Shown here: positions 39,703 to 46,663 of the stretch, one piece after another | Layout of the letters: each line of letters opens with the position of its first letter | Position numbering within the stretch: the stretch's first letter is position 1 | Assembly: GCF_001044255.1 (NCBI RefSeq) | Contig: NZ_JYNX01000035.1 | Span: 38,575-102,574 of the forward strand | DNA from: Mycolicibacterium chubuense | Lineage (GTDB): Bacteria > Actinomycetota > Actinomycetes > Mycobacteriales > Mycobacteriaceae | DNA length: 64,000 nt | Direction: 5' to 3' | The notes under the pieces: model-generated | Databases searched by the model: none | What the model saw: only the letters and a program-made list of their open reading frames with translations | Told to the model about the DNA's origin: nothing | Translations under genes and position numbers: made by a program

Positions 39703-40448
39703 TCTCCGCAACCCGCGCCGATGTGTGCGCCGTCGCCTGCGCCGAATTGTTCCGTGACGCAGGCGAGATCATGGTCAGCCCGATGACCACGATCGTCTCG
39801 ATCGGCGCCCGGCTGGCGCGGCTGACCTTCTCCCCCGACATCCTGCTCACCGACGGCGAGGCCCGGCTGATCGCCGACACCCCCGCCATCGGCGCGGCCG
39901 CGGCGATCGAGGGCTGGATGCCGTTCGGCCGGGTGTTCGAGACGCTGGCCTGGGGCCGTCGTCATGTCGTGATGGGCGCCAACCAGATCGACCGCTACGG
40001 CAACCAGAACCTGTCGGCGTTCGGGCCTCTGCAGCACCCGACCCGGCAGATGTTCGGCGTGCGCGGCGCACCGGGCAACACGATCAACCACGCCACCAGC
40101 TACTGGGTGGGCAACCACTCCACCCGGGTGTTCGGCGACTCTGTCGACGTGGTCTCCGGAATCGGCTGGGACAAGGTCGATCCGGACAATCCCGCCTACC
40201 GGTTCGTCAACGTCTTCCGGGTCGTGACCAACCTGGGCGTGTTCGACTTCAACGGACCGGACCACCAGATGCGGGCGGTGTCCCTGCATCCCGGGATCGA
40301 GCCCGAGCAGGTCGCCGAGAACACGTCGTTCGAGGTGCACGGACTCGGTGAGGCCGACACCACCCGGCTGCCGACCTCCGACGAGCTGACGATCCTGCGC
40401 GAGGTGATCGACCCGAAGGCGCTGCGCGACAAAGAGGTGAGGGTATGA
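39699..40448 (+). CDS. ipdB: Steroid ring-opening CoA-ester hydrolase, IpdB subunit
   Basis: 249 residues, beta subunit of the CoA-transferase fold, partner of IpdA. Key blocks are ADTPAIGAAAAIEGWMPF, MGANQIDRYGNQNLSAFG and RGAPGNTINHATSYW. ATG is in ATGA overlap with ipdA, and its stop overlaps ipdC the same way, so the three are translationally coupled. Confidence 0.92.
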   Translation: MISATRADVCAVACAELFRDAGEIMVSPMTTIVSIGARLARLTFSPDILLTDGEARLIADTPAIGAAAAIEGWMPFGRVFETLAWGRRHVVMGANQIDRYGNQNLSAFGPLQHPTRQMFGVRGAPGNTINHATSYWVGNHSTRVFGDSVDVVSGIGWDKVDPDNPAYRFVNVFRVVTNLGVFDFNGPDHQMRAVSLHPGIEPEQVAENTSFEVHGLGEADTTRLPTSDELTILREVIDPKALRDKEVRV

Positions 40449-41518
40449 GCCGCCTGCGGACTCCGCTCACCGAGCTTGTGGGCATCGAACATCCCGTCGT
40501 GCAGACCGGGATGGGGTGGGTGGCCGGCGCCCGGCTGGTGGCGGCGACCTCGAACGCGGGCGGCCTCGGCATCCTCGCCTCGGCGACCATGACGCTCGAG
40601 GAGCTGACGACCGCCGTGGCCAAGGTCAAGGCCGCGACCGACAAACCCTTCGGCATCAACATCCGCGCCGACGCCGGCGACGCGAACGACCGCGTCGACC
40701 TCCTGATCCGCGAAGGAGTCAAAGTCGCCTCCTTCGCCCTGGCTCCCAAGCCCGATCTGATCGCACGGCTCAAAGAGGCCGGTGTGGTGGTGATCCCGTC
40801 CGTGGGGCTGGCCAAGCACGCGAAGAAGGTCGCCGGCTGGGGCGCCGACGCCGTCATCGTGCAGGGCGGCGAGGGCGGCGGGCACACCGGTCCGATCGCG
40901 ACCACGCTGCTGCTGCCGTCGGTGCTCGACGCGGTGGCCGACACCGGGATGCCGGTGATCGCCGCAGGCGGCTTCTTCGACGGGCGGGGACTCGCGGCCG
41001 CGCTGTCCTACGGCGCCGCAGGCGTCGCCATGGGCACCCGCTTCCTGCTGACCTCCGACTCGACCGTGCCCGACGCGGTGAAGCAGCGCTACCTGCAGGC
41101 GGCACTGGACGGCACCGTCGTCTCCACCCGGGTGGACGGCATGCCGCACCGGGTCCTACGCACCGGCCTGGTGGAGAAGCTGGAGAGCGGATCCCCGGTG
41201 CGCGGCCTCGCCGCGGCGGTGACCAATGCACAGAAGTTCAAGAAGATGACCGGCATGACGTGGCGGTCGATGATCCGCGACGGCATGGCGATGCGGCACG
41301 GCAAGGACCTGAGCTGGTCGCAGGTGGTGATGGCCGCCAACACCCCGATGCTGCTGAAAGCCGGCCTGGTGGAGGGCAATACCGACGCCGGCGTGCTCGC
41401 CTCCGGTCAGGTCGCCGGCATCATCTCCGACCTGCCGTCGTGCGCCGAGCTGATCGAGAGCATCGTGAGCGAGGCGATCGAGCACGTGGAAGCCGCCACC
41501 GCCTACATCACGAAGTGA
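40445..41518 (+). CDS. ipdC: NPD-family flavoprotein IpdC
   Basis: 357-residue TIM-barrel flavoprotein of the nitronate monooxygenase/NPD family. FMN contacts are TGMGWVAGARLVAATSNAGG near residue 22, VQGGEGGGHTGP and AAGGFFDGRGLAAALSYGA. It works in ring C/D degradation with IpdF upstream of the EchA20 and IpdAB steps. The stop codon is the first base group of a TGAAG-N7-CTTCA palindrome that belongs to the next gene's control region. Confidence 0.9.
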   Translation: MSRLRTPLTELVGIEHPVVQTGMGWVAGARLVAATSNAGGLGILASATMTLEELTTAVAKVKAATDKPFGINIRADAGDANDRVDLLIREGVKVASFALAPKPDLIARLKEAGVVVIPSVGLAKHAKKVAGWGADAVIVQGGEGGGHTGPIATTLLLPSVLDAVADTGMPVIAAGGFFDGRGLAAALSYGAAGVAMGTRFLLTSDSTVPDAVKQRYLQAALDGTVVSTRVDGMPHRVLRTGLVEKLESGSPVRGLAAAVTNAQKFKKMTGMTWRSMIRDGMAMRHGKDLSWSQVVMAANTPMLLKAGLVEGNTDAGVLASGQVAGIISDLPSCAELIESIVSEAIEHVEAATAYITK

Positions 41519-41588
41519 AGCAATCAGCTTCATAGATACAAAATGAAGCTATAGTCTTCATATGGCTCGAATGAAGCGCCTGGCTTCA
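41516..41588. promoter_or_regulatory. Three tandem TGAAG-N7-CTTCA palindromes, 28-bp period
   Basis: Copies lie at 41516-41532, 41544-41560 and 41572-41588. Each has perfect 5-bp arms around a 7-nt spacer, and starts are exactly 28 bp apart with 11 bp between copies. Copy 1 covers the ipdC stop, copy 2 contains the predicted -10 in its spacer, and copy 3 lies inside the first codons of the SatD-type gene. This is the layout of a cooperative repressor operator array; the regulator is not identified. Confidence 0.75.
41527..41555 (+). promoter_or_regulatory. Promoter of the SatD-type gene
   Basis: -10 TATAGT at 41550-41555 ends 6 nt before ATG 41562, so the mRNA is probably leaderless. A weak -35 GCTTCA (41527-41532) is 17 bp upstream. 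The promoter is embedded in the operator array. Confidence 0.6.
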
Positions 41589-42209
41589 ATGTTGTGCGCG
41601 ACGGTCATCGGAGACGTCGTGGGCTCCCGCGAGTTCGCCGACCGGCGCGGGCTGCACCGACGGCTGACCGCGGCGTTGGCGGCCGTCGCCGACGGCGCCG
41701 CCGATCCGCCCGCCATCACGGTCGGCGACGAATTCCAGGGCGCGTACCCCACCGTGGGGCATGCGATCGACGCGGCGTGGGCGCTGCGGCTGACCCTGGC
41801 GCCCGACGTCGACGTCCGGTTCGGCATCGGCTGGGGTGCGGTCACCGCACTCGACGAGACGGGCGTGCAGGACGGGCCGGGATGGTGGGCGGCCCGCGAG
41901 GCCATCGAGTGGACGGCAGCCGCCCAGCGGCAGCCCGGACTGGCGCACGTACGCACCGCGTTCCGCAACGGCACCGGCGAGGGAGCCGACCCGCACGCCG
42001 TCAACGCCGCCCTGATGTGTCGGGACCATCTGCTTGGATCGCTGGACGAGCGGGCCCTGCGGATTCTGGCCGGGATGCGGGCGGGACGTTCCAAGAAGGA
42101 GGTGGCGATGGCGGAGGGCATCAGCGCCTCGGCGGTGTCCCAGCGCGCCGGACGGGCCGGGCTGGACCTGCTCCTCGTCGCCGCCGAGGAACTCCGGGAC
42201 ATCCGATGA
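41562..42209 (+). CDS. SatD-family protein with C-terminal HTH
   Basis: 215 residues. The N-terminal block CATVIGDVVGSREFADR and the middle VRFGIGWGAVTALDE match SatD-family proteins, whose role is not established. Residues about 168-205 (RSKKEVAMAEGISASAVSQR) form a convincing helix-turn-helix of a sigma-70 region 4/LuxR type. It could bind the palindrome array at its own start. ATG 41562 fits the leaderless promoter; ATG 41571 and 41589 are also in frame. The stop overlaps the membrane gene (ATGA). Confidence 0.75.
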   Translation: MARMKRLASMLCATVIGDVVGSREFADRRGLHRRLTAALAAVADGAADPPAITVGDEFQGAYPTVGHAIDAAWALRLTLAPDVDVRFGIGWGAVTALDETGVQDGPGWWAAREAIEWTAAAQRQPGLAHVRTAFRNGTGEGADPHAVNAALMCRDHLLGSLDERALRILAGMRAGRSKKEVAMAEGISASAVSQRAGRAGLDLLLVAAEELRDIR

Positions 42210-42952
42210 GCGCCCTGGCCGTGTTCCTGATCGCCGTCGGCATCGCCGACATCTGCCGCAAACTCAGCACGCACCGGTGGCCGGGCCTGGTCGCCGGCCC
42301 GCTGGCCGTCATCGCGTGCGCGGCCTCGGCCGGGCTGTGGCACCGCGGGGACATCGCGCTGCTCGTCGTCGCCGCCGCGGTGTCGGTCGCGTGGGTGGTC
42401 CTCGGCGGTGCGTCCGAGCGCACCGGGACCCGGCACGGCCGGGCGCTGACCGTGTTCGGGGTCGGCGCTGCGCTCATGGTCGCGTTCGGCGGCTGGGCGT
42501 CGGAGGTGGCCGGGCCGCTGGGCCGGTGGCTGCCCTGGGTCGGGCTGGACGAGGTGGAGCCGGGCCGAGCACTGATGATCCTCGCGATCGTCCTGCTGCA
42601 GTTGGTCACCGCAAATCAATTGGTGCGCTTGATCCTGGGTGCGGTCGGCGCGGTCCGCCCCGCCGGTGTGCCGCAACCCTCGGACCGCCTCAAGGGCGGC
42701 CGGCTGCTCGGACCGATGGAGCGGCTGCTGATCGTCGGGCTCGGCCTGGGCGGTCAGTTCGGCGCGGCCTCGGCGGTGATCGCGGCCAAGGGCATCATCC
42801 GTTTCCCCGAGCTCAACGCCGCACGCAAGGAGTCGGCGGACAGCGGCGACTCCGCCGGCTCCGGCATCGATGAAGTAACCGAGTACTTTCTGGTCGGCAG
42901 CTTCGCGAGCTGGCTGATCGCGCTGGCCGGCCTCGCCCTCACTGCGGCCTGA
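42206..42952 (+). CDS. Membrane protein paired with SatD, DUF3307-like C-terminus
   Basis: 248 residues with about seven hydrophobic segments. The C-terminal part (GPMERLLIVGLGLGGQFGAA, then VIAAKGIIRFPEL and YFLVGSFASWL) resembles the DUF3307 membrane proteins found beside SatD genes in other bacteria. It is translationally coupled to the SatD-type gene (ATGA). Function unknown. As far as I recall the pair has no counterpart at this place in M. tuberculosis. Confidence 0.7.
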   Translation: MSALAVFLIAVGIADICRKLSTHRWPGLVAGPLAVIACAASAGLWHRGDIALLVVAAAVSVAWVVLGGASERTGTRHGRALTVFGVGAALMVAFGGWASEVAGPLGRWLPWVGLDEVEPGRALMILAIVLLQLVTANQLVRLILGAVGAVRPAGVPQPSDRLKGGRLLGPMERLLIVGLGLGGQFGAASAVIAAKGIIRFPELNAARKESADSGDSAGSGIDEVTEYFLVGSFASWLIALAGLALTAA

Positions 42953-42997
42953 CCGAATCCGCCGCGGCGGCCGAGCCGCCTTCCTAGACTCGGCCCG

Positions 42998-44110
42998 ATG
43001 AAGACCAACGCGGCCATCCTCTGGGAGTACGGGTCCGACTGGACCGTCGAAGAGATCGATCTCGACCCGCCGGGCGACGGCGAGGTGCTGGTGTCGTGGG
43101 AGGCGACCGGGCTGTGCCACTCCGACGAGCACATCCGCACCGGCGACCTGCCGGTGCCGCTGCCGATGATCGGCGGTCACGAAGGCGCCGGGATCGTGCG
43201 CGAAGTGGGCGCCGGCGTCACCGGTCTTGCGCCAGGCGACCATGTCGTCGCCTCGTTCCTGCCCGCCTGCGGCCGATGCCGGTGGTGCTCGACCGGTCAC
43301 CAGAACCTGTGCGACCTCGGCGCGATCATCATGGCCGGCACGCAGTTGGACGGCACCTACCGGCGCCGCGCCCGCGGGCAGAACATCGGTGTGATGGCGC
43401 TCGTCGGCACGTTCTCCCAGTACGGCACTGTTCCGGAGGCGTCGATCGTCAAGATCGACGACGACCTTCCGCTGTCCCGGGCGTGCCTGCTCGGCTGCGG
43501 CGTCACCACCGGGTGGGGGTCGGCGGTCAACACCGCCGACGTGCAACCGGGCGACACGGTGGTGGTGATCGGGTTCGGCGGGATCGGCAGCGGCGCGGTC
43601 CAGGGCGCGCGGATCGCCGGCGCGGAGAGGATCGTGGTCGTCGAGCCCGTCGAGGACAAGCGGGCCAAGGCGATGCAGCTGGGCGCAACACATTTCGTCA
43701 CGTCCCTGCCCGAAGCGACAGCGCTGGTCGCGGAGCTGACCCGCGGGGTGATGGCCGACTCGGCGATCCTGACGGTCGGGCTGCTGGAAGGGTCGATGCT
43801 CGACGACGCGGTCAACATCATCCGCAAGGGCGGCGCCGTGGTGATGACGGCCCTGTCCTCGATGACCGACAACCAGGCGACGCTGGGCATGATGATGTTC
43901 ACGCTGTTCCAGAAGCGGCTATTGGGAAGCCTTTACGGCGAGGCCAACCCGCGCGCGGACATCCCGCGGCTGCTGTCGCTGTACCGCGAGGGCAAGCTGC
44001 TGCTCGACGAGACCGTCACCCACGAGTACAAACTGGCCGAGGTCAACGAGGGCTACGAGGACATGCGCGCCGGCCGCAACATCCGCGGGGTCATCCTGCA
44101 CGACCACTGA
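42998..44110 (+). CDS. Zinc-dependent alcohol dehydrogenase, NDMA-dependent type
   Basis: 370 residues, MDR superfamily. The catalytic zinc site is at CHSDEH (near residue 40) and GGHEGAG, the structural zinc at CGRCRWCSTGHQNLC, and the NAD-binding motif is GFGGIGSGAVQGAR. The sequence resembles mycobacterial NDMA-dependent dehydrogenases that keep NAD(H) tightly bound. The substrate is an alcohol of unknown identity; a steroid role is only suggested by location. It converges with fadA6, leaving 15 bp. Confidence 0.85.
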   Translation: MKTNAAILWEYGSDWTVEEIDLDPPGDGEVLVSWEATGLCHSDEHIRTGDLPVPLPMIGGHEGAGIVREVGAGVTGLAPGDHVVASFLPACGRCRWCSTGHQNLCDLGAIIMAGTQLDGTYRRRARGQNIGVMALVGTFSQYGTVPEASIVKIDDDLPLSRACLLGCGVTTGWGSAVNTADVQPGDTVVVIGFGGIGSGAVQGARIAGAERIVVVEPVEDKRAKAMQLGATHFVTSLPEATALVAELTRGVMADSAILTVGLLEGSMLDDAVNIIRKGGAVVMTALSSMTDNQATLGMMMFTLFQKRLLGSLYGEANPRADIPRLLSLYREGKLLLDETVTHEYKLAEVNEGYEDMRAGRNIRGVILHDH

Positions 44111-44125
44111 GCATCGGCGGGAGAA

Positions 44126-45274
44126 CTACAGCCGCTCGATGATCGTGACGTTGGCCGTGCCGCCGCCTTCGCACATCGTCTGCAGGCCGTAGCGCCCGCC
44201 GGTGCGCTCCAGCGTGTTCAGCATCGTCGCGAAAAGCTTTGCGCCCGTGGCACCGAGCGGATGGCCGAGCGCGATCGCGCCACCGCTGGGGTTGACCTTC
44301 TCGGGATCGGCCTTGGTCTCCTTGAGCCAGGCCTGCACCACCGGCGCGAACGCCTCGTTGATCTCCACGGTGTCGATGTCGTCGATCGACAGCCCTGTCT
44401 TGTCCAGCGCATAGCGGGTGGCGGGGATGGGACCGGTGAGCATGAACACCGGGTCGGCGCCGCGGGCGCTGATGTGGTGGATGCGGGCGCGTGGTTTCAG
44501 GCCGTGGTCCTTGACCGCCTGCTCGGAGGCCAGCAGCACCGCGCTCGCGCCGTCGGAGATCTGGCTGGCCATCGCCGCGGTCAGCCGGCCACCGTCGACG
44601 AGGGTCTTCAGCGTCGCCATCTTCTCCAGCGACGTGTCGCGGGGTCCCTCGTCGACCCGGAACCCGTCCACCTCGAGGATCTCGTTGTCGAAGTGGCCGG
44701 CGCGGATCGCGGCCTGGGCGCGCTGATGGCTGGTCAGCGCGTACTGCTCCATCTCCTCCCGGGAGATGCCCCACTTCTCGGCGATCAGTTCCGCGCCGCG
44801 GAACTGCGAGATCTCCTGGTCGCCGTAGCGGTGCAGCCAGCTCTTGGATTCGTTGGTAGGCGAGGTGAATCCGAACTGCTCGCCGACGATCATCGCCGAA
44901 CTGATCGGGATCTGGCTCATGTTCTGCATGCCGCCGGCCACGATCAGGTCGGCGGTACCCGACATGATCGCCTGCGCGCCGAACGACACCGCCTGCTGGC
45001 TCGACCCGCACTGCCGGTCGACGGTCACGCCCGGCACTTCTTCGGGGAAGCCGGCGGCCAGCCACGACAGCCGCGCGATGTTGCCGGCCTGCGGGCCGAT
45101 CGCATCGACGCATCCGGCGATCACATCGTCGACGGCTCCCGGGTCGACGTCGTTGCGGTCGAACAGGCCGCGCCACCCGGCCGCCCCGAGGTCGACCGGG
45201 TGCACACCGGCCAGCGATCCGTTGCGCTTGCCGATGGCGGTGCGGACGGCGTCGATGACGTATGCCTCACTCAT
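44126..45274 (-). CDS. fadA6: Thiolase FadA6
   Basis: 382 residues. Nucleophile Cys89 in DRQCGSSQQ, His in ALGHPLGATGAK and Cys in TMCEGGGTAN. FadA6 is the thiolase of the KstR2 regulon, acting late in ring C/D breakdown. ATG 45274 follows GAAGGAG; the longer frame upstream is in kstR2. It overlaps kstR2 by 8 bp. Confidence 0.92.
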   Translation of the reverse strand: MSEAYVIDAVRTAIGKRNGSLAGVHPVDLGAAGWRGLFDRNDVDPGAVDDVIAGCVDAIGPQAGNIARLSWLAAGFPEEVPGVTVDRQCGSSQQAVSFGAQAIMSGTADLIVAGGMQNMSQIPISSAMIVGEQFGFTSPTNESKSWLHRYGDQEISQFRGAELIAEKWGISREEMEQYALTSHQRAQAAIRAGHFDNEILEVDGFRVDEGPRDTSLEKMATLKTLVDGGRLTAAMASQISDGASAVLLASEQAVKDHGLKPRARIHHISARGADPVFMLTGPIPATRYALDKTGLSIDDIDTVEINEAFAPVVQAWLKETKADPEKVNPSGGAIALGHPLGATGAKLFATMLNTLERTGGRYGLQTMCEGGGTANVTIIERL

Positions 45275-45875
45275 GAGGAGCTCCTTCTGTGGTGGTGATA
45301 CCGCCGAGGACGATCGAAAGATACTGCCGTCCAACCTCTTCGGCGGTCAGCGGCCCGCCCGGTTGGAACCAGCGAACCGACACCCAGGTGGTGTCGCGGA
45401 TGAACCGGTAGACGAGATCGACGTCGACGTCGGGGCGGAAGTAGCCCTCCTCGATGCCCTGGGTGAGGACGTCGACCCACATCTTGCGCTGCTCTTTGTT
45501 GCGCTCCTCGACGTAGGAGAACCGCTCCTGCGCCGACAACCGCTTGGCCTCGTCCTGGTAGATCACGACCTCGGCGTGCCGGGTGGCGATCGCCTCGAAG
45601 GACGCCATGAACAGACCCTTGAGGCGCTCCAACGGATTCGGCTCGGTCTCCACGATCTGGCGGTAGCGCTCGAAGAGCCAGTCGAGGAACCCGCGCAGCA
45701 CCTCGTCGACCATCTCCTCCTTCGACGAGAAGTGGTGGTACAGGCTGCCGGAGAGGATTCCGGCGGAGTCGGCGATGTCGCGGACCGTGGTGGCCCGCAG
45801 CCCGCGCTCGGCGAACATCGTCGCGGCGAGCGAGAGAAGCTCGTCACGACGGGTGTTGGCGGGTCCGGCGCTCAT
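45267..45875 (-). CDS. kstR2: TetR-family repressor KstR2
   Basis: 202 residues. The HTH is TTVRDIADSAGILSGSLYHHF (about 29-49), and the ligand domain matches KstR2 almost residue for residue (VIYQDEAKRLSAQERFSY, YRFIRDTTWVSVRW). KstR2 binds ANCAAGNNCTTGNT and releases with HIP-CoA. ATG 45875 overlaps the ipdF stop (ATGA). Two boxes are in this window; the operon containing kstR2 is itself under the box at 47825, so it should be autoregulated. Confidence 0.94.
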   Translation of the reverse strand: MSAGPANTRRDELLSLAATMFAERGLRATTVRDIADSAGILSGSLYHHFSSKEEMVDEVLRGFLDWLFERYRQIVETEPNPLERLKGLFMASFEAIATRHAEVVIYQDEAKRLSAQERFSYVEERNKEQRKMWVDVLTQGIEEGYFRPDVDVDLVYRFIRDTTWVSVRWFQPGGPLTAEEVGRQYLSIVLGGITTTEGAPHE

Positions 45876-46663
45876 GGGTGCTGACTCGACACCGAGATCA
45901 CCTCGCCGGTCAGGTAACTGGAGTAGTCGCTGGCCAGGAACGCGATGGTGGCCGCGACCTCCCACGGTTCGGCGGCGCGGCCGAACGCCTCGCCCTGGGA
46001 CAGCCGGTCGAGCAGCTCACTGCTCGAGGTCTTCTCCAGGAACTTGTGCCGCGCGATGCTGGGTGACACCGCGTTGATCCGCACGCCGAACTCGACGGCC
46101 TCGATCGCGCTGCATCGCGTCAGCGCCATCACACCGGCTTTGGCTGCGGCGTAATGGGATTGGGAGTGCTGCGCGCGCCAGCCGAGGACGCTGGCGTTGT
46201 TGACGATCACGCCGCCGTGGCCGGTGTCGCGGAAGTACCGCAGCGCGGCGCGCGTCGCCCGCATCACCGAGGTCAGCGTCACGTTGAGCACCCGGTCCCA
46301 CTCGTCGTCGGTCATGTCGACCACCGGGGTCTGGCCGCCGAGCCCGGCGTTGTTCACCAGGACGTCGAGCCGGCCGGCCTGTTCCACGGTCGAGGTGATC
46401 AACGCGTCGACGGCCTCGGTGGAGGTGACGTCGCACACGACGGCGTGCACGGCGCCCAGACCGAGGGCCGCGAGTTCGTCGCGCGTCTCACCCAACCGGC
46501 GTTCGTGGTAGTCGGAGACGACGACGTCGGCGCCCTCGGCCAGGGCGCGGCGAGCGGTCGTCGACCCGATGCCGGTACCGGCGGCGGCGGTGACGAGGAC
46601 GACCTTGCCGGCCAGCAGGTTGTGGCCCTCGATCTCGGCGGGGGCGACGGACAGATCGGTCAC
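45872..46663 (-). CDS. ipdF: Short-chain dehydrogenase IpdF (Rv3559c-type)
   Basis: 263 residues. Cofactor motif TAAAGTGIGSTTAR, NNAG in LVNNAGLGG, and catalytic YAAAK with Ser in NNASVLG. It oxidises a hydroxyl of the indane carboxyl-CoA intermediate in the IpdC/EchA20 section. GTG 46663 overlaps the fadE30 stop (GTGA). Second gene of fadE30-ipdF-kstR2-fadA6. Confidence 0.9.
   Translation of the reverse strand: MTDLSVAPAEIEGHNLLAGKVVLVTAAAGTGIGSTTARRALAEGADVVVSDYHERRLGETRDELAALGLGAVHAVVCDVTSTEAVDALITSTVEQAGRLDVLVNNAGLGGQTPVVDMTDDEWDRVLNVTLTSVMRATRAALRYFRDTGHGGVIVNNASVLGWRAQHSQSHYAAAKAGVMALTRCSAIEAVEFGVRINAVSPSIARHKFLEKTSSSELLDRLSQGEAFGRAAEPWEVAATIAFLASDYSSYLTGEVISVSSQHP

Follow-up and report, generated by a model that had tools for sequence, protein, structure and literature searches.

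A tandem array of palindromes associated with satD in Mycolicibacterium chubuense and its relatives: a candidate autoregulatory operator for the SatD family

The window analyzed in this work, a stretch of 64,000 nucleotides from Mycolicibacterium chubuense, contains three copies of the palindrome TGAAG-N7-CTTCA repeated with an exact period of 28 bp around the start of a gene encoding a member of the SatD family (PF16264). We find it highly probable that this array is a private tandem operator of SatD, bound by SatD dimers via their C-terminal helix-turn-helix (HTH) domain, and that it serves the negative autoregulation of satD together with the gene of a membrane protein located immediately downstream.

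Geometry and uniqueness of the array

The first-pass annotation of this region reported three palindromes with an exact 28-bp period, and both their coordinates and their perfect arms were confirmed in the window: site 1 at 41516-41532 (TGAAGCAATCAGCTTCA), site 2 at 41544-41560 (TGAAGCTATAGTCTTCA) and site 3 at 41572-41588 (TGAAGCGCCTGGCTTCA), each regarded here as a candidate operator site. Their positions relative to the genes also agree with the initial description, according to which the array covers the ipdC stop codon, the hexamer TATAGT and the first codons of satD. Site 1 overlaps the TGA stop codon (41516-41518) of the upstream gene (40445-41518, forward strand), which was called ipdC at first pass and encodes a member of the nitronate monooxygenase family of Pfam; site 2 holds the predicted -10 element TATAGT (41550-41555, forward strand); and site 3 falls within codons 4-9 of satD (41562-42209, forward strand, with the ATG start predicted at 41562).

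The window contains four matches to the palindrome with at most one mismatch, compared to a mean of 0.69 and a maximum of 3 in 100 dinucleotide shuffles. In the 5.95-Mb genome the exact palindrome occurs in four copies (being palindromes, they are each counted on both strands), namely the three sites of the array and one elsewhere, while the reversed-pattern control yields one. The satD array is also the only place in the genome where two sites with up to 3 mismatches are spaced by 28 bp (reversed control: 0). With only four exact copies and no other pair of this spacing, the array is not a common repeat; thus the genome, which had been proposed at the outset as the place to look for many unrelated copies, holds no second array.

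Conservation at satD loci of the genus

SatD matches were found in 75 out of 198 genomes of the genus; two of them are fragments, and 73 loci are intact. Conservation upstream of satD orthologs had been suggested earlier as a check, and two sites at a distance of 28 bp (score of at least 17 out of 20) are present at 72 of the 73 intact loci, while three sites, each scoring at least 7 out of 10, are present at 68. In 69 genus loci aligned on site 2, which were picked by a pattern so that site 2 itself is partly fixed, most arm positions carry 1.5-2 bits of information (a few carry 0.5-1.2 bits); in sites 1 and 3 the spacer mostly stays below 0.5 bits, and that of site 2 shows conservation at the -10 element. 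Site 2 ranks as the most conserved of the three, with the loci having been aligned on this very site. That the arms are preserved and the spacers in sites 1 and 3 are not bears out the early assessment that a chance arrangement is unlikely.

A site-2 pattern was built from the satD loci of the genus and used to scan that set of 198 genomes. It matched exactly once in each of 67 genomes, always within about 60 bp of one end of the SatD match, and the reversed control gave no hit. The pattern is absent from 8 of the 75 genomes with SatD and from all 123 genomes without a SatD match. Within the genus, the array is thus linked privately to satD.

A few loci depart from the common arrangement. One intact satD (L073) lacks the array and retains a single site (9/10) just before the gene. 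In three loci (L017, L020 and L027) the array is offset by one repeat unit, with the -10 site as the last of the three, the start codon directly after it, and no site within the coding region of satD. Finally, the SatD match of L078 (from genome G097) comprises only 46 residues, the site-2 pattern is missing from that genome, and the gene is probably a decayed copy.

SatD loci beyond the genus

The geometry of the array was analyzed by scanning 261 pairings of inner spacer length with period in two sets of loci. The combination of a 7-nt spacer and a 28-bp period ranks first of 261 among 124 loci (those of the genus plus named records, which include a few other genera), and again among 105 further loci from other genera. 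An array score of at least 17, which less than 1% of single-base shuffles attain, is reached by 72 of 73 genus loci, by 28 of 28 named mycobacteria and by 72 of 128 loci from other genera; the remaining 56 of these 128 fall below the cut-off. A group of distant SatD-like loci (L122, L124, L127-L129, L258-L269) reaches it in only 1 case of 17, with a different half-site, and some of its members have other palindromes near the gene start. Another locus (L190), which combines a satD of 55% identity with a TGAAG array, resides on a contig filed as a metagenome-assembled genome (MAG) of Chloroflexi, possibly as a result of mis-binning.

Constraint on the coding sequence and the predicted promoter

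Codon usage and start distances were counted for 110 loci overall. Of 94 loci with a serine encoded by the right arm of site 3, 92 use TCA, compared to 9.0% of 1408 serine codons in the part of satD that encodes the domain; where the preceding residue is alanine, GCT is used in 56 of 57, compared to 4.4% of 4154 alanine codons in the same part of the gene. Both rare codons are thus kept at site 3. This coincidence of site 3 with rare codons indicates that the constraint acts on the DNA, and we infer that these codons are needed by the DNA and not by the protein.

The predicted -10 element is of the TANNNT type and lies six bases ahead of the satD start codon, at a conserved distance; the start codon itself is positioned 1 nt past site 2 in 102 of the 110 loci. 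In M. tuberculosis, 73% of primary transcription starts are preceded by a TANNNT centered at a distance of 7-12 bp, and leaderless genes make up 26% of those with a primary start (PMC3898074). The position of TANNNT and of the start codon gives satD what appears to be the layout of leaderless mycobacterial promoters, so that a leaderless start is predicted, as had been proposed at first pass; the regular placement of the start codon strengthens that prediction.

Domain architecture of SatD

The SatD protein of the window matches PF16264 over residues 14-205, i.e. over nearly its full length, HTH included (51.6 bits, with a cut-off of 29). The structural model, which is confident, reveals a nucleotidyl-cyclase-like fold in residues 1-160 followed by an HTH region with helices within residues 163-198. 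The presence of an HTH in SatD itself, on which the first-pass annotation relied, is further supported by similarity to Sigma70_r4, detected for 16 of 23 SatD sequences (best E-value 2.1e-6); the window's own sequence matches the SatD family alone, which spans the HTH part.

Two acidic residues of the cyclase-like domain, Asp18 and Asp56, are invariant (23 of 23 and 42 of 42 SatD sequences), and hhalign aligns them with the metal-binding Asp motifs of cyclases, with a probability of only 14.8 and a match limited to residues 11-97. As regards the substrate-binding Lys and the transition-state Asn-Arg pair of class III cyclases, visual inspection indicates that there is no Lys at residues 52-53, that Trp108 replaces Asn, and that Arg112 is invariant. 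As the fold is cyclase-like and the acidic residues are invariant, a nucleotide may be the signal perceived by SatD. A sequence search of the M. chubuense genome yields 22 matches to PF00211 (guanylate cyclase family), none of which is SatD.

Residue 189 and the outer base of the half-site

A scan that presumes only an AG-N7-CT core identified sites in 189 of 229 loci, compared to 7% of shuffled stretches. Among 203 columns of the SatD alignment (172 loci with arrays), residue 189 is the most informative about the first base of the operator (mutual information: 0.78 of the entropy), followed by residues 172 (0.73) and 85 (0.67), neither of which is located in the recognition helix; residue 189 is the first residue of the recognition helix predicted from the model (189-198). 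Gln189 is associated with a half-site beginning with A in 22 of 24 loci with a site, and Ala or Pro at this position with a half-site beginning with T in 160 of 162. The exceptions are two related Gln loci with T (L120, L121), one Ala/Pro locus with C (L266) and one with a tie (L293). These counts leave out the loci in which the scan detected no site, namely 13 of 37 with Gln and 22 of 184 with Ala/Pro; of the uncounted Gln loci, two (L218 and L219, score 16) combine TTCAG with ATAAG halves, and four (L080, L087, L098 and L100) have other half-sites. Glutamine commonly contacts adenine.

On a tree of the SatD N-terminal domain, residue 189 and the half-site each change 6 times, and the number of independent pairs (1 if only well-supported branches are considered, 6 with every branch included) is too small for significance. 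Ancestry confounds the association, as related sequences share both traits. TTAAG is found at a Pro locus placed among the Gln loci (L249), and ATCAG in a Gln clade that stands apart with good support (L117, L118, L286). The association of the outer base with a residue of the predicted recognition helix points to SatD itself as the reader of the array. Together with the conservation of the array at satD, it lends support to the earlier nomination of SatD as its own regulator, and on these comparisons we predict that SatD is very probably an autoregulator.

Genomic neighborhood

The stop codon of satD overlaps, by ATGA, the start of a gene (42206-42952, forward strand) whose product is predicted to be a membrane protein with several long helices (pLDDT of the model: 90.6). 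A profile search with this protein and eight relatives detected no Pfam family above the cut-off. The search for relatives of the membrane protein was positive at 209 of the 226 satD loci that span at least 3300 bases, and among 80 named loci none was found on the strand opposite to satD. The upstream gene is outside this module: an ipdC-like gene precedes satD in 51 of the 73 genus loci and was not found upstream in the other 22, all of which (22/22) keep the array, which argues that the array belongs to satD. Inspection of the region 40445-46000 by eye places the satD pair between the ipdC-like gene and genes resembling those of an alcohol dehydrogenase, a thiolase and a TetR-type regulator.

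Proposed mechanism and alternative explanations

To judge from the layout described above, SatD is most likely a repressor of a leaderless operon comprising satD and the membrane protein gene. One SatD dimer would bind each 17-bp palindrome through the C-terminal HTH; the centers of the half-sites are 12 bp apart, about one helical turn, a spacing that would suit a dimer on one face of the DNA. Since site 2 holds the -10 element, its occupancy would block RNA polymerase, and the blocked promoter would keep the expression of satD and of the overlapping membrane protein gene low. Binding of a nucleotide and a metal by the N-terminal domain could alter the DNA binding. The 28-bp period corresponds to 2.67 turns (at 10.5 bp per turn), i.e. 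240 degrees, so neighboring sites lie on different faces of the helix, which argues against simple cooperativity on the same face; three dimers would instead be distributed around the helix.

A more elaborate version of this proposal, which we put forward tentatively and regard as less likely than not, is that SatD is a one-component nucleotide sensor. The cyclase-like domain would be degenerate and would bind a nucleotide and a metal, and it would be joined to the HTH; the dimers would form a spiral on the DNA, each rotated by 240 degrees from the previous one, and the nucleotide would release or tighten them, thereby controlling the membrane effector. Such a design, with a switchable recognition code, could be distributed across several families of Actinomycetes.

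SatD could also bind the array and activate transcription, or switch it in both directions depending on a nucleotide, instead of acting as a plain repressor. The invariance of Asp18 and Asp56 in the cyclase-like domain suggests control by a ligand, and site 1 is located upstream of the -10 element, where activators can sit; but the most conserved site covers the -10 element itself and another lies in the coding region, where bound protein is expected to hinder the polymerase, and we regard this possibility as unlikely. It is still less probable that the array is bound by a regulator encoded elsewhere and not by SatD, given that the site-2 pattern is confined to genomes with SatD (0 of 123 others in the genus), that M. 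chubuense has no second array, and that the alignment column of SatD which tells most about the operator belongs to the recognition helix.

We consider it very improbable that the palindromes function as RNA hairpins, either as an attenuator or by sequestration of the start codon. The 93-nt region does fold better than its shuffles (z = -2.9 for the forward and -2.06 for the reverse strand), as inverted repeats would, but transcription from the predicted start at 41562 would include only site 3, the initial 79 nt of this transcript show no more folding than shuffled sequences (z = 0.21), and the sites within a locus tend to share a half-site consensus that follows a residue of the protein. The genus loci are related, but chance or shared ancestry without function is a negligible explanation, contradicted by arms that are conserved while the spacers in sites 1 and 3 are not, by the rare codons kept in site 3, and by the same geometry ranking first among other genera.

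Relation to known systems and significance

The arrangement of the proposed SatD system resembles that of NrdR, a nucleotide-sensing repressor with a nucleotide-binding regulatory domain that acts on paired, evenly spaced palindromic boxes, in the way proposed here for SatD. The domains of the two proteins are unrelated, and the NrdR boxes are separated by an integral number of turns, unlike the 2.67 turns of the SatD array. The HTH of SatD resembles that of the plasmid repressor TrfB/KorA (the KORA family is matched weakly by 14 of 23 SatD sequences, best E-value 0.0098), which is an autoregulator acting on palindromes. The sequence and spacing of its operator differ from those of the SatD array, and to our knowledge it has no cyclase-like domain.

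The cyclase fold of the SatD model is shared with class III nucleotidyl cyclases (e.g. Rv1900c, Rv1625c and Ma1120). A mycobacterial subfamily with the CHD+LuxR architecture (PMC3466318) likewise combines a cyclase-like domain with an HTH. SatD differs from it in its size of about 215 aa and in the type of HTH, for which the top family among its relatives is sigma region 4, with the LuxR-type GerE matched in 5 of 23.

PF16264 takes its name from a role in secretion and acid tolerance of Streptococcus mutans and is annotated as an acid-tolerance protein. The accessible portions of SatD papers on streptococci and Fusobacterium likewise deal with acid tolerance and do not describe DNA binding; in the latter organism satD is annotated as an acid resistance gene (PMC10326533). 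Our literature search, with most subscription journals outside its coverage, found no description of SatD in a regulatory role among the matches listed. A study of S. pyogenes reports that satD is accessory and yet essential (PMC11323703), a status that would fit a repressor or an antidote of a harmful partner.

For a family hitherto named only for acid tolerance, these results propose a function as a transcription factor that is open to testing, along with an operator, a recognition residue and a target operon. It would offer a class of regulators in which a cyclase-like domain is combined with an HTH whose recognition code varies naturally (Ala/Pro or Gln at position 189). The loss of a repressor of a harmful neighbor may also be the reason why satD is essential and yet accessory in a streptococcus.
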